Below, piece after piece: positions 862-14,663 of a DNA stretch of 34,063 bases. How positions within the stretch are numbered: position 1 is the first letter of the stretch; every line of letters begins with the position of its first letter. The DNA comes from Planctomycetaceae bacterium (GTDB lineage Bacteria; Planctomycetota; Planctomycetia; Planctomycetales; Planctomycetaceae). Location of the stretch: the NCBI GenBank assembly GCA_020426395.1, contig JAGQQC010000003.1:1-34063 (forward strand), read 5' to 3'. The position numbers and the translations under genes were made by a program. The notes below the pieces were generated by a model. It made no database searches. It saw only the letters and a list, made by a program, of their open reading frames with translations, and was not told where the DNA came from.

Positions 862-2628
862 TCAGAACATCTGGCTGAGCGTGTCGATCAACAGGCCGCC
901 CGGGCTGGAGTTGGTGGAGGGCAAGGGTGCCCAGAGAGCTCGGATCAGGTCGATGGCCACGAAAGTGCAAAGCAGCATGATCAGTGCGGATCCGATGGAA
1001 AGCCCTACGGAGAGGCCATCCCACTCGGCGGGTGCAGCAACCATGGCCTGCCCCCCCATACCGGCTGGCATGGGTTGACCAAAATCGGCGGCGCTTTCGC
1101 CTGTTTCGAATCCTTCGTCATCGAAGACATCGTCATCCGCATCGAAGACATCGAATTCATCCAGTGTGGAAACGGATCCATCGTCGTCTTCGAAATCGAA
1201 ATCTTCACCTTCGAATTCATTGAATTCATCAAGCGATTCTTCGAGTTCGAATTCTTCGCTGTCCATGTCTTCGAATTCCGAGTCGGCCATTTCAAAGACG
1301 TCAGCAGAATCGCCTCCCGCCAATGTGGCCGCCTGATCTTCGTCGTCATCCATGAACAGCATTTCGGTATCGTCAGTCGTATCGTCGTCGAGTCCGAATG
1401 CATCGAGATTGTCGGTATCAGGACCACGGCCACCTGGAGTGGCCATCATAGGAATGGTTCCCTTCAGTTCATCGTCCATGCTGATGCCACTGTCATCTTC
1501 CAGAGAGATGCCACTGTCATCCGCCAGATCAAGGGCGATGCCGCTATCATCATCGGGCAACAGTGAAATCGTGCTGTCATCATCGGGTTCGAGGGCGAGA
1601 CCACTGTCGTCCGATTCCAGAGAGATTCCACTATCGACGGGATCATTCAAAGAGATACCACTTTCACCCGCAATACGAATATCCGAGTCTTCACTTTCCG
1701 CCAGCGAAATTCCGCTTTCGTCAACCAGGTCTTCTTCAGAGACCAGGGCAACATCGCTGTCGCTGCCTTCCAATTGGGGCTCCCTGTCACCGACGAGTCG
1801 TACGTCGCTGTCACTGCCAAAATCGAAGGCGGGTTCCGGTTCGTCATCGGCCAGTTTCACATCCGAATCGCTGTCAGCCCCCATTTCTTCCAGTTCAGGT
1901 TCGAGCTGGACATGGCTGTCGCTTTCTTCTGCCGAAAGTGGTACTTCCGGATCGGTTCCGAGAGAGGCGTCGTACGTTTGTTCGACATCGTTATCGGTAT
2001 CGACGATTTTTACATCGCTGTCTGATTTCTTGTTTCTGGTGGTCGGAATTTCCATGTGAGTATCTTCACCGGCCAGTTTCACATCGCTATCGGAATCGTC
2101 CTGAACCAGGCCGACGTCACTATCCGAATCCGCACCGACCAATTTCACATCCGAATCGGTTCCACTCAAGGCTCCTTCCGCAACGGGAACTTCCGAACCA
2201 CTATCGGAGGAAACGATCTTCACGTCACTGTCCGATTGCTTATCGACATTCTGGTCAACCAGACGAACATCACTATCGGAATCGCCAATGGAATCAAACG
2301 AAATTTCCGGCTCGCTGTCTTCGCCGACCAGGTTATCGTCGAGAACCAGTCGTACATCGCTATCGGAAGAACTTTCGGCGAGTGAAGCTGTGTCTTCCGC
2401 GGAGAAGGTCTGCTCAGGAGTTTCTTGCGGCTGATAGAGTGGGACATCCGGATCGGAGTCGGGTCGCTGGCTGCGCAGGTATTCCTGTACCTGATCTTCC
2501 CGAAACTTCCAGGAGCCTCGATCCTGATATCCTCGAATTTCATTACGTACACAGAGCTGTTTCAATTCGTCGGGGGAAATGCCAAGCAGTTCGGCTGCTT
2601 CTTCCAGACTGATGTACCGGTTAGCCAT
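862..2628 (-). CDS. HTH (excisionase/MerR-like) protein with acidic SDSDV/DSGIS repeats and C-terminal membrane anchor
   Basis: The start at 2628 is chosen because GGAG lies upstream of this ATG and the protein then opens with the helix-turn-helix (YISLEEAAELLGISPDELKQL, split here as YISLEEAAELLG + ISPDELKQL). The longer frame from 2664 has no ribosome site. Residues about 1-55 resemble the excisionase-type winged HTH, with the GSWKFREDQVQEYL wing. The middle about 400 residues are strongly acidic and repetitive: roughly a dozen SDSDV(K/R)(L/I) units, then about eight DDSGISL units, then Glu/Asp-rich linkers. Near the C-terminus a hydrophobic segment (GLSIGSALIMLLCTFVAIDL) can span the membrane, leaving a short tail. 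The architecture implies a DNA- or protein-binding head tethered to the membrane through a long flexible acidic stalk. The function is unknown. Serine-rich repeats could be phosphorylation sites, which is inference only. Confidence 0.85.
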   Translation of the reverse strand: MANRYISLEEAAELLGISPDELKQLCVRNEIRGYQDRGSWKFREDQVQEYLRSQRPDSDPDVPLYQPQETPEQTFSAEDTASLAESSSDSDVRLVLDDNLVGEDSEPEISFDSIGDSDSDVRLVDQNVDKQSDSDVKIVSSDSGSEVPVAEGALSGTDSDVKLVGADSDSDVGLVQDDSDSDVKLAGEDTHMEIPTTRNKKSDSDVKIVDTDNDVEQTYDASLGTDPEVPLSAEESDSHVQLEPELEEMGADSDSDVKLADDEPEPAFDFGSDSDVRLVGDREPQLEGSDSDVALVSEEDLVDESGISLAESEDSDIRIAGESGISLNDPVDSGISLESDDSGLALEPDDDSTISLLPDDDSGIALDLADDSGISLEDDSGISMDDELKGTIPMMATPGGRGPDTDNLDAFGLDDDTTDDTEMLFMDDDEDQAATLAGGDSADVFEMADSEFEDMDSEEFELEESLDEFNEFEGEDFDFEDDDGSVSTLDEFDVFDADDDVFDDEGFETGESAADFGQPMPAGMGGQAMVAAPAEWDGLSVGLSIGSALIMLLCTFVAIDLIRALWAPLPSTNSSPGGLLIDTLSQMF

Positions 2629-2850: not shown

Positions 2851-2873
2851 CAGGGGGAAACCCCCTGTTTTTT
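2851..2873 (+). terminator. Intrinsic terminator with no plus-strand gene before it
   Basis: A perfect 7-bp stem, CAGGGGG/CCCCCTG, closes a three-base AAA loop and is followed at once by six T residues on the plus strand. On the minus strand the bases after the hairpin are ATTGATC, so it is oriented for plus-strand transcripts. No plus-strand gene ends upstream, because the preceding gene is on the minus strand. It may stop antisense transcription or end an unannotated small RNA. Confidence 0.75.
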
Positions 2874-3128
2874 ATCGGTAAGCAGCGATCTCGGATCTTA
2901 TTCAACGACAGAATCGTTCTACGAATACTCTACTGTTTCACACCTTCGGCCCGGTGACAATCAGGAGTTCGGTGTAGAACGCAAAAGTGTCACAAACGTT
3001 GGGATGTGCTCTGGGGTTTCATTCCAAATCCGGGAATTCGCTACAGTCGTTAGTATCCCTACCCAGGCTGGCCGTATAAGAAGCTCCTCTCCACCTGTTC
3101 TCCCCTATTCTAAGCCCCCGAGGAGGCA

Positions 3129-6110: not shown

Positions 6111-9104
6111 ATGCCACGGCAACTGGTCATTACAGCGATCACAACGTGCCTGCTCGCAGGTATCGGCTGGCTGTATCACCAGTACGTCAATCCATTGCTT
6201 CTTCCTCCAACACTGACCCTCGAAAATCGCATTCCAGAAACACCCCTCGAACATCAACTGGGGCCAATTGAAAACCGGGAACTGGCCGTTCGGTATTTGG
6301 AAGAAGTCGAGTGGGTTCAGCAGAACCCCGGTTACCAATTCCGGCTGGGCGATCAGGCTTTTGTCTTTGCCAACAGCTTGACCCGAAGTGGAAAAACCGT
6401 CCGCCTGGAACCCTTCGCCATGATCTGGGTTCCGAAACAAAAACCGGGAGACTCGAAGCCAACAGAACCCTTCACAGTCACTTGTGAATCGGGCAGTATC
6501 GAATTTAATGACGAATACAGCTTTGAAAATGTGGAAAAAAAACTTCGCGTGGTCAAAGGACAACTGCGGGGAGATGTGAAAATCAAAGGAGCGGATGGGC
6601 TTTCTCTCCGGGGAAGTAGTTTTGTCTATTCGGAAGAAGCGATGAGCATCGTCTGCGACGATAAGCGTATCGAGTTTCAGTACAAAGGAACCGAAGGGGT
6701 CGCAGACGGCCTTGTCGTGAACCTCCAGATAGATGAGGCGCTCAAGCGGGAGGGAGAAATTCCCATCAGTGGCGTCCGTAGCTTGCGACTGCGAGAGAAC
6801 ATCAGCTTGATCTATCAAGAGCCTTTCGAAGAATCGACTTCACCGGAAAAATCGGCTTCCAAAGGCCCTGTGATGATCTCCTCACAGGGAAGCCTGATTT
6901 ATGATCTGGAATCTAACATCGCGCAGTTACTGCAAAACGTGCAGATTCATCGACAGGTCAAACCGGGTGAATCCGAGCATCTGTATGCTCCCGAGAAACT
7001 GACTATCGAATTGATGGAGGAAGAAGATCCGGACTCTTCCGAAATGACCGCCGCTACACGAACTCCTGCTTCCAACGAAGAAGAGGAGGACGACCTCAGC
7101 CAGATCCGTCGACTTAGTGCTACCGGCAATCCGGTTCGGTTAATTGTGGAAAAACAGGAACTGGTCGTCGAGACGGTCAACCTGGTCTACGACTACCAAA
7201 CTCGGACAGCCTTGCTGAATGGTTCCGGAGGAGTCTCGGCGCAGATGGAAGAAAACCATCTGGAGTGTCCTGAACTTCAATTGATTCATAACGAAGAAGA
7301 TGACATCGAATCGGTCATCGGTCTCGGGCGGGGAAAGCTGGTGCAACTTGATCGAGAAACGAATGAACTGAAATTTCAGGCCTCGTGGTTGAAGAAGATG
7401 CAGTTTCTGCATGACTTTGAAACCGATCATGACATCGTGCGACTGGATGAACAGGCTTTCTTCCGAGTGCCTGAACAAAACTTCGCCGCTTCTGCCAATC
7501 ATCTACTCGTCCGCCTGGAGGAGTGGATCCCCCCTGCCCCCCCGGGTAGCACCGCCAAACCCGATGGCAAACGCCAACCGGTCTACGTCCTTGCGGAAAA
7601 CAACGTGCATATGCAAATGCAGCAACTTGAAGCGCGCAACGAGTTAACACAGGTCTGGATTCGAGACTTAACACATTCACAGGCAGAGCAATTAGAACAG
7701 AAAATAACGCCTCCTGAGAACGAGACTCCGGGCGGAATTGTTGAACGGCACGATCAGCCGGAAAAAGAATCATCCGACTCCGATCCGTATGAAGATCCGA
7801 CCTCGGTTTCGTCCGAAAAAATGGAAGTGCTGGTCAACCGAATTCACCCACAGGAACCTGTAGGCGATGCCAATCCAGAAGAAGAGAAGCCGAAACCAAA
7901 GATGGTTGTGCATCAGGCTGATATTCTGGAAAACGTGATGGTGAAACGGACCAGCGCCGAAGCGAACCGGAATCTGGCGATTGCCGGGGACCAGGTCCGT
8001 TTTTGGAAGAACGAACAAGGGAAAGAAACGATCACCGTTTTCGGAGCCCCCGCCGAAGTTCAGGGACAACAAGCCTACCTGACCGGCAATCAGCTGCAAG
8101 TTTACACGGAATCGGAACAAGCTGAAGTTCTCGGCCCGGGACAACTGCGCCTGGAAGTCCGCAAAGACTTTGAAGGAAAAGATCTCGAATCACCCGATGT
8201 CCTGACCATTGCCTGGAAAGAAAAAATGGCCTTCAGTGAAAAAACGGCCTCGTTCTTCGGGCAAGTTGTCGCCACCTCAAAAGTCAACCAAAGCCGAATC
8301 CATTGCCAGACGATGCACGTGCACTTCACCGATACGATTGCCTTCTCAGAGGAAAAAGAAGGCGAACGACCAGACATCAAGTTGATCGAATGTCTGGAAC
8401 AAGTTCGGCTTTTCAACAAGGAATTCAAAGGAGAAACCTTAACGGAAATCCGAACGGGGCAAGTGTGGGAATTGCGGATTTATCCCGAATCAGGAGATAC
8501 CGAATCAGTCGGGCCAGGACACTTCGAAATCTGGTCCCAGGATAAAGATAAGAACGACCTTGCTTCGTTATCAACTCAATCATCAGTCATGTCGAACAAG
8601 TCGCTGACGGTTTCAGGTGCGGATTGGGATTACATCCGGGTCGATTTTCATCGCAATTCCAAAGGAAATCTGCGCTCTCGAACGAACACCTTCGAAGGAG
8701 GTGTGGAAATGATCTACGGCCCCGTTCAGCATCCCCAACAAGTGGTGCAACGAAGCCAACTCTCGAAAGGTTCGGGAACGATGTCGGCTCAGCAACTGGA
8801 CATCCACCAGATCAAGAAAGTCGAAAACAATTCAGAGGAAGAAACCGCTTACGTCGAGCTATTGGCAAGTGGAAATGTCCGCCTGGAAAGTGACACATTC
8901 CACGCCCGGGCCGACCGTGTTTCTTACGAACAATCGAAGAAGCGATATCACTTGCGTTCCCTTGGACGGGAACTCGTTTACTTCTGGCAACAGGAACAGC
9001 CAGGAGCCGAACCCGTTCAAACGACAGCCAAAGCCATGACCTACTATCCCGAAAAAGGGCAGATCGATATCGAGAAAGTGCAATCGCTGCAAGGCTCTCA
9101 GTAA
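6111..9104 (+). CDS. Very large LptC/LptA (OstA)-like envelope protein
   Basis: The 997-residue product has one N-terminal membrane span (about residues 4-20, LVITAITTCLLAGIGWL) and no cleavage motif that I can see, as in LptC. The remainder is almost entirely beta-type sequence with recurring blocks of the kind 'V..G.V.I...D....L.G....Y.....' (for example around residues 125-185, 340-400 and 600-680). These recall the stacked jellyroll strands of LptA/OstA. Two acidic linkers (around 300-330 and 545-615) break the protein into segments. LptC and LptA form the periplasmic bridge for LPS, and the place directly after kdsD supports that role. At about 1000 residues it is roughly five times the usual LptC or LptA size, so one chain may build the whole bridge. 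The family assignment is by pattern and context and is moderate. Confidence 0.7.
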   Translation: MPRQLVITAITTCLLAGIGWLYHQYVNPLLLPPTLTLENRIPETPLEHQLGPIENRELAVRYLEEVEWVQQNPGYQFRLGDQAFVFANSLTRSGKTVRLEPFAMIWVPKQKPGDSKPTEPFTVTCESGSIEFNDEYSFENVEKKLRVVKGQLRGDVKIKGADGLSLRGSSFVYSEEAMSIVCDDKRIEFQYKGTEGVADGLVVNLQIDEALKREGEIPISGVRSLRLRENISLIYQEPFEESTSPEKSASKGPVMISSQGSLIYDLESNIAQLLQNVQIHRQVKPGESEHLYAPEKLTIELMEEEDPDSSEMTAATRTPASNEEEEDDLSQIRRLSATGNPVRLIVEKQELVVETVNLVYDYQTRTALLNGSGGVSAQMEENHLECPELQLIHNEEDDIESVIGLGRGKLVQLDRETNELKFQASWLKKMQFLHDFETDHDIVRLDEQAFFRVPEQNFAASANHLLVRLEEWIPPAPPGSTAKPDGKRQPVYVLAENNVHMQMQQLEARNELTQVWIRDLTHSQAEQLEQKITPPENETPGGIVERHDQPEKESSDSDPYEDPTSVSSEKMEVLVNRIHPQEPVGDANPEEEKPKPKMVVHQADILENVMVKRTSAEANRNLAIAGDQVRFWKNEQGKETITVFGAPAEVQGQQAYLTGNQLQVYTESEQAEVLGPGQLRLEVRKDFEGKDLESPDVLTIAWKEKMAFSEKTASFFGQVVATSKVNQSRIHCQTMHVHFTDTIAFSEEKEGERPDIKLIECLEQVRLFNKEFKGETLTEIRTGQVWELRIYPESGDTESVGPGHFEIWSQDKDKNDLASLSTQSSVMSNKSLTVSGADWDYIRVDFHRNSKGNLRSRTNTFEGGVEMIYGPVQHPQQVVQRSQLSKGSGTMSAQQLDIHQIKKVENNSEEETAYVELLASGNVRLESDTFHARADRVSYEQSKKRYHLRSLGRELVYFWQQEQPGAEPVQTTAKAMTYYPEKGQIDIEKVQSLQGSQ

Positions 9105-13268: not shown

Positions 13269-14663
13269 ATGAAAATCACCTTTTATGGTGCCGCTGGTGA
13301 AGTCACTGGCAGCCAACATCTCGTGGAAACTGAGCGGCATCGTTTTCTGCTCGATTGTGGATTCTTTCAAGGACATCGAGCGGAATCTCGCAAGAAGAAC
13401 GAAGAATTCCTCTGCAAGCCAAAAGATCTCGACGCGATTTTTCTTTCGCATGCGCATATCGACCACTGTGGAAATCTTCCCGGTATTTATAAAGCCGGTT
13501 TCCGAGGCCCCATTTTCTGTACTCCGGCCACGGCAGAGGTCGCCGAGATTATGCTGCTCGACAGCGCCCGTATTCAGGCAGAAGATGCACGGTTTCTTTC
13601 CAAACACATTCGGGGAGACCACCCTCCCTTCGAACCGTTATACAACGAGGATGATGTTTACAAAGTCGTCAAACGTTTCGAAACCATCGACTATCGGGAA
13701 ACGCATGAACTCGCCGACGGATTCAATGTCACGATGTACGAGGCGGGCCACATTCTCGGTTCGGCAGTGACCCGATTTGAAATTGAAGACGAAGGTGAGC
13801 TGAAGCGGCTCGTCTTTACTGGTGACCTGGGCCGTCGCGACATGCCACTGCTGCATGACCCGTATCCGCTGCAGGGATGTGATATTTTGATTGGGGAATC
13901 GACCTATGGTAACCGGGTACACCCCCCTGCGCCGGATGTGAAATACCACCTCAAAAAAATTATTCACGATGCGTACGAGGAAGGGGGCAAGGTCATCATC
14001 CCTGCCTTCAGTCTCGGACGAACACAACAGGTCGTGTATTACCTTAATGAATTGATCCACCATGATGAGCTACCGAATGTGCCGGTCTATGTGGACAGCC
14101 CACTCGCCAATCGGTTAACGAAAGTGTACGAGCGATATCAGGATCTGCTCGACATGGATGCACAACGGATGCTGAAAAAAGACGACAACCTGTTCCATTT
14201 CCCCGGTATCCGATATGTGCAAACTCGTGATGAAAGCAAACAGATTAATCGGGCAGAGGGAACGGCCGTCATTATCGCTGCCAGCGGCATGTGCGAGTCG
14301 GGCCGTGTGCGACATCATTTGGCGCATCATGTGGACGACGAGCGAACCATCATTCTGATCATCGGCTTCCAGGCGCAGAACACCCTCGGTCGCAAGCTGG
14401 TTGAGGGACACCGCTATGTCAAAATCTTTGATCGCGATTTTCCCCTGAGAGCGCAAGTGAAGAAAATCAACGGTCTGTCAGGTCATGCCGATATCGAAGA
14501 TATGAAATGGTGGTATGAGCACCTGGCCGGAGACGAGGGAATTAATCACACGTTCCTCGTTCATGGTGAACCTGAATCAGCCCGGGCTCTCGCTGGTACA
14601 ATCAGAGACATCTGCAACGAAGACCCGATCATCCCGCAACGGGGTGAGAGCTTTGAAGTGTGA
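13269..14663 (+). CDS. MBL-fold beta-CASP RNA metallo-hydrolase
   Basis: The 464-residue protein has the complete metallo-beta-lactamase signature: HAHIDHCG at 61-68 (H61, H63, D65, H66), the AGHILGS histidine at 161, and the GDLGR aspartate at 186. The beta-CASP insertion follows, including ESTYGNR (210-216), VIIPAFSLGRTQQVVYYLNEL, VDSPLA, and the AASGMCESGR loop. A C-terminal LSGHADIEDM and VHGE complete the metal site. This is the CPSF-73/YSH1-like bacterial group of zinc-dependent endo- or exoribonucleases. The ribonuclease role is inferred from the family. The ATG at 13269 starts directly with the first beta strand (MKITFYGAAGEVTGS), so the start is secure although its Shine-Dalgarno is weak. 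It stands alone on the plus strand. Confidence 0.92.
   Translation: MKITFYGAAGEVTGSQHLVETERHRFLLDCGFFQGHRAESRKKNEEFLCKPKDLDAIFLSHAHIDHCGNLPGIYKAGFRGPIFCTPATAEVAEIMLLDSARIQAEDARFLSKHIRGDHPPFEPLYNEDDVYKVVKRFETIDYRETHELADGFNVTMYEAGHILGSAVTRFEIEDEGELKRLVFTGDLGRRDMPLLHDPYPLQGCDILIGESTYGNRVHPPAPDVKYHLKKIIHDAYEEGGKVIIPAFSLGRTQQVVYYLNELIHHDELPNVPVYVDSPLANRLTKVYERYQDLLDMDAQRMLKKDDNLFHFPGIRYVQTRDESKQINRAEGTAVIIAASGMCESGRVRHHLAHHVDDERTIILIIGFQAQNTLGRKLVEGHRYVKIFDRDFPLRAQVKKINGLSGHADIEDMKWWYEHLAGDEGINHTFLVHGEPESARALAGTIRDICNEDPIIPQRGESFEV

Follow-up and report, generated by a model that had tools for sequence, protein, structure and literature searches.

A near-universal Planctomycetia protein with a winged helix-turn-helix head, an acidic motif stalk and a predicted membrane tail as a candidate scaffold of the cell envelope

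The gene at positions 862-2628 on the minus strand of the window, the whole stretch of 34,063 nucleotides analyzed here, encodes a 588-residue protein in which a winged helix-turn-helix (wHTH) domain is joined by a long acidic stalk to a predicted C-terminal membrane helix. This architecture is not a one-off: the family is near-universal in the class Planctomycetia and previously undescribed, and a literature search recovered no paper describing the 588-residue protein. Our tentative interpretation is a tail-anchored scaffold of the inner membrane whose wHTH binds protein, whose motif-bearing stalk is multivalent, and which serves the cell envelope; we assign this reading a probability of roughly 0.45. 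Planctomycetes divide without FtsZ, and none is present in P. limnophila (PMC12283558), a species in which 108 phylum-specific proteins are essential and have no known function (PMC10632474). A near-universal protein that is predicted to link cytoplasm and inner membrane, and whose gene recurrently has a cell-wall-type lipoprotein gene as its neighbor, is a concrete candidate for the missing planctomycete cell biology, and more specifically a candidate for organizing the envelope of cells whose division does not use the common machinery.

Architecture of the protein and its wHTH head

The gene is complete, with 588 codons and a stop, as supported by its translation and by a full-length alignment of orthologs, in which the ATG at 2628 is the common start. 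An in-frame ATG further upstream, at 2664, would add 12 residues, which were found in none of the aligned orthologs. In an AlphaFold2 model built on 33 aligned orthologs, the wHTH was predicted with high confidence (pLDDT ~95), residues 60-530 were disordered (mostly below 50), and helices were placed at residues 538-566 and 578-587. The HTH head, acidic repeat stalk and C-terminal membrane span of the original prediction are all real and conserved, as seen from profiles, motif counts, hydropathy and the AlphaFold2 model.

The wHTH domain covers residues 5-55 (2464-2616, minus strand) and was recognized by PF12728, TIGR01764, AlphaFold2 and Foldseek. What had been described as an excisionase-like HTH matches both families above their curated cut-offs, namely HTH_17 (PF12728, residues 5-55, E 8.7e-10, 39.2 bits against a cut-off of 27) and "excise" (TIGR01764, E 9.8e-9, 35.4 bits against 28.8). 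HTH_17 was the only family present in all 33 orthologs scanned, and no other recurrent named domain was found in them. The fold is thus that of the HTH_17 and excisionase-type wHTH proteins, such as BldC and Xis, but these are basic or polar at the recognition-helix positions, whereas the planctomycete protein is acidic there and is fused to a stalk and a membrane helix. Excisionases of the Xis/RDF type are furthermore small proteins of mobile elements, unlike this 588-residue product of a near-universal chromosomal gene.

The recognition helix comprises residues 19-27 (2548-2574, minus strand) with acidic positions 20 and 21. Among 60 orthologs, 83% have an acidic residue at the first of these positions and 77% at the second, as compared to 0% and 20% in a set of 20 other HTH_17 proteins drawn from Planctomycetia genomes, a comparison whose nominal p-values ignore relatedness. 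The other HTH_17 proteins favor Arg or Ser at position 20 and Thr at position 21. Separate planctomycete HTH_17 proteins of ~240-280 residues, perhaps HTH-PTS EIIA fusions, served for comparison only. In 46 proteins of other classes, the frequency of acidic residues is 93% at position 20, 83% at position 21 and 96% at wing position 36, and acidic residues at all three positions (D36 here) recur phylum-wide. The domain as a whole is near neutral, with a mean net charge of -0.05, and its conserved basic residues R32, K41 and R/K43 could contact nucleic acid. Foldseek matched the wHTH to BldC, NmlR, RacA, CbpM (3ucs) and Xis, all of them weakly (every E above 0.01) and with DNA complexes of BldC, NmlR and RacA at the top. 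A PDB match to 8vd6, a "CAP REPEAT" repeat protein, was judged to be a designed protein and discarded.

Judged by its residues, the wHTH probably does not bind DNA in the normal way. We favor protein binding because the acidic helix resembles that of CbpM, a MerR-like protein without the DNA-binding residues of MerR regulators, whose Glu22 belongs to its interface with the CbpA J-domain (PMC4063869). Position 20 of the planctomycete protein corresponds to Glu22 by sequence register, as checked against the CbpM sequence, and the MerR-like wHTH domains carry comparable acidic helices (SEEEL in CbpM, S-x-[DE]-[DE]-L here). CbpM differs in having only ~100 residues and a C-terminal coiled coil, with neither stalk nor membrane helix, and the AlphaFold2 model contains no C-terminal coiled-coil dimer helix of the CbpM type. 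Besides CbpM, the protein may offer another example from nature of a wHTH that has been converted to protein binding.

A different role for the head would follow if the wHTH bound DNA and the stalk and membrane helix held this DNA at the membrane, as in RocS, RacA or Noc. The best fold matches, which include the RacA-DNA (5i44) and BldC-DNA (6ama) complexes, and the conserved R32, K41 and R43 point in this direction, as does the precedent of RocS, which combines a DNA-binding domain at its N-terminus with a membrane-binding helix at its C-terminus and is under the control of phosphorylation (PMC11500499). Both RocS (Streptococcus) and RacA (Bacillus) share with the planctomycete protein an N-terminal HTH and a C-terminal part that gives membrane or pole association, but they bind DNA, use coiled coils and lack an acidic motif stalk, and RocS has an amphipathic helix rather than a span. 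No coiled coil of the RocS/RacA type was predicted between HTH and anchor, where the modeled stalk is disordered and helix-free. Against a chromosome-membrane tether also stand the phylum-wide acidic residues at positions 20 and 21 and in the wing, the near-neutral charge of the domain and the identity of the recurrent neighbor, an envelope lipoprotein, and we consider such a tether unlikely. The idea that the protein tethers the chromosome or a promoter to the membrane thus retains its HTH fold and its membrane span, and is weakened in its DNA-binding part by the acidic positions. RodZ, another membrane-anchored HTH protein, which binds MreB, is also similar to the planctomycete protein, but its span is central, and it has a periplasmic domain and is not known to have an acidic stalk.

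The acidic stalk and the membrane tail

The stalk begins with two repeat blocks. Block 1 (residues 88-295; 1744-2367, minus strand) is built of SDSDV[RK]L-type repeats, as shown by motif counts against shuffles and by within-genus identity, and block 2 (residues 302-386; 1471-1725, minus strand) of DSGISL-type repeats, as shown by motif counts and by its position after block 1 in orthologs. We counted nine copies of SDSDV and six of the DSGIxL type, each against a shuffle mean of 0.03. Both variants have the same core, [DE][ST]-x-phi-x-phi, and differ chiefly in x, which is D in block 1 and G in block 2; this core occurs 22 times, with 1.3 copies expected and no more than 6 in any of 2000 shuffles. 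In 39 orthologs, the motifs of block 1 lie ahead of those of block 2 (mean 0.99 of motif pairs). The original prediction of two distinct repeat units in ordered blocks was therefore right about the order, but the units are variants of one core, and the repeats, which are far above chance, extend over ~300 residues (residues ~88-386) rather than about 400.

Across orthologs, the number of motifs tracks the length of the stalk (r = 0.90). Core residues are ~98% identical between congeners, as compared to 68-73% for the spacers, and the motif itself, beyond composition, is therefore under selection. The remainder of the stalk (residues 387-530; 1039-1470, minus strand) is a non-repetitive, acidic and disordered zone (AlphaFold2 mostly pLDDT <55), in which amino-acid change within the genus is well below synonymous change, with dN/dS values that are rough because synonymous sites are nearly saturated.

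A similar combination of a cytoplasmic domain, an acidic disordered region and membrane helices is found in SpmX of Caulobacter, which forms condensates and recruits a kinase (PMC8849385). The N-terminal domain of SpmX is unrelated, no domain of its type being present in the 33 orthologs, and SpmX has two membrane helices. It is not known to have an array of one linear motif.

The near-invariant Ser in the acidic core, repeated 22 times, would also suit a phosphorylation-controlled hub, in which acidophilic Ser/Thr kinases modify the repeated serines and thereby switch client binding. Such a hub would be compatible with a scaffold, but repeats of serine and aspartate can owe their conservation to other causes, and we rate the hub as improbable.

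The predicted membrane-spanning helix (residues 538-566; 931-1017, minus strand) was identified from hydropathy, AlphaFold2 and the C-terminal alignment. It corresponds to a single hydrophobic segment (Kyte-Doolittle 2.36) that begins ~48 residues before the C-terminus, as it does in all complete orthologs examined, and it ends in a (D/E)L(V)R.MW-type motif that is kept in the alignment. The C-terminal span that had been proposed is thus borne out, as a prediction, by hydropathy, the modeled helix and ortholog conservation, and a single hydrophobic span near the C-terminus is the arrangement of a tail-anchored protein. A short amphipathic C-terminal helix follows (residues 578-587; 868-897, minus strand), as indicated by AlphaFold2 and by the hydrophobic moment of the last 13 residues, which lies at the mean 92nd percentile of shuffles in 46 orthologs. 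The N-terminus is probably on the cytoplasmic side of the inner membrane, because the N-terminal HTH is not preceded by a signal; the charges on either side of the span do not decide the orientation.

Distribution, gene neighborhood and candidate function

The N-terminal domain was present in 56 of 59 relatives. Relatives with named records are labeled Planctomycetaceae, Gimesia, Schlesneria and Fuerstiella. When the C-terminal membrane segment was used as a profile, 293 of the 298 genomes of the class Planctomycetia were recovered, a shortfall of five that is no larger than expected from incomplete assemblies. In a sample of the phylum, this profile matched 37 of 292 genomes, every one in this class, and none of the ~255 sampled genomes of other classes. 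A second profile, restricted to the wHTH subtype, matched 164 of 195 genomes of the phylum (E <= 1e-6), usually with one copy. In nearly all inspected open reading frames outside the class, the wHTH is followed by an acidic linker and a membrane span, with 0-2 core motifs per protein, as compared to 3-31 in the class, and with no repeat array. The predicted wHTH-linker-anchor plan is accordingly phylum-wide, and the repeat stalk, which members of other classes lack, and the conserved tail belong to Planctomycetia. The C-terminal segment occurs once in the source genome; some genomes of the same family contain a second, diverged copy of the protein, whose repeats are of the DSGL type and whose membrane tail is a version of its own. 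A TEPT[IV][IV]LP motif was observed just after the wHTH in ~14 of the 46 proteins from outside the class, and a GEQPT[IV]IR motif somewhat further past the wHTH in some Planctomycetia members; both are possible phospho-Thr sites.

The location beside rpsA, which had been singled out as worth checking, is not conserved. The two genes are directly adjacent in the source genome only; other open reading frames stand between them in a sister genome, and rpsA was not found in the remaining neighborhoods examined. A different gene recurs: in 24 of 71 neighborhoods, not all independent because some genomes are related, a gene for a lipoprotein with an OmpA domain (PF00691, E 1.9e-16) lies directly downstream on the same strand. 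Loci of other classes account for 11 of these cases (of 20 examined), and two Planctomycetia sets for 5 (of 20) and 8 (of 31). The lipoprotein signal was recognized by visual inspection of the N-termini, and the protein probably binds peptidoglycan. The OmpA-lipoprotein gene was found nowhere else in the 71 neighborhoods, and since the seven genomes checked have only 1-4 OmpA-family genes each, chance adjacency is very unlikely. The original prediction had missed that the protein is near-universal in the class, that a wHTH-linker-membrane family runs through the phylum, and that an OmpA-lipoprotein gene recurs as a neighbor.

We infer a scaffold from the computed fold, disorder, constrained motif array, distribution and neighboring gene. 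The C-terminal helix would anchor the protein in the inner membrane, with the wHTH and the ~470-residue acidic stalk in the cytoplasm, and the acidic helix of the wHTH would grip a partner protein, as in CbpM, instead of the major groove of DNA. The stalk would display ~22 copies of [DE][ST]-x-phi-x-phi and may therefore be able to hold many copies of a client or to self-associate at the membrane. The recurrent linkage to the OmpA lipoprotein suggests a role in envelope organization, growth or division. Arguing against a scaffold are the weak Foldseek matches led by DNA complexes, the basic residues of the wHTH, and the genus of the window, in which the OmpA gene is not adjacent to the wHTH gene.

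A bolder version, which we regard as decidedly speculative, is a phylum-wide trans-envelope module, in which an anchored, protein-binding wHTH would have a genetic and perhaps also a physical link to an OmpA/Pal-like lipoprotein, and in which Planctomycetia would have gained a multivalent stalk that organizes the membrane for FtsZ-free budding. A membrane-sequestered transcription regulator, freed by cutting of the disordered stalk, would account for a wHTH and a membrane helix at opposite ends of a long disordered linker, but it has little probability given the acidic DNA face, a strictness of motif constraint that a spacer does not need, and the lack, in the neighborhoods examined, of any constant target operon other than the OmpA gene.

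Further genes were observed near the family and in the window. At five loci of other classes, gspE/gspF-, ksgA-, dnaG- and rpoD-like genes were seen by eye near the wHTH gene. In three genomes from two families, the conserved flanks consist of a protein of 112-130 residues upstream, which had no Pfam match, and two proteins of ~730-1050 residues downstream. An Rfam search of the window gave zero matches. A terminator-like hairpin, CAGGGGGAAACCCCCTG, followed by six T, is located at 2851-2874 (plus strand), upstream of the minus-strand gene, in a region where the count of such sites is not above that of shuffles. The gene at 13269-14663 (plus strand) encodes a beta-CASP metallo-beta-lactamase protein that resembles archaeal aCPSF1 and the NCBIfam type VII Cas14 model, with scores below the curated cut-offs. 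Finally, the gene at 6111-9104 (plus strand), which adjoins a KdsD-like gene, encodes a protein of 997 residues with a C-terminal LptA-like domain.
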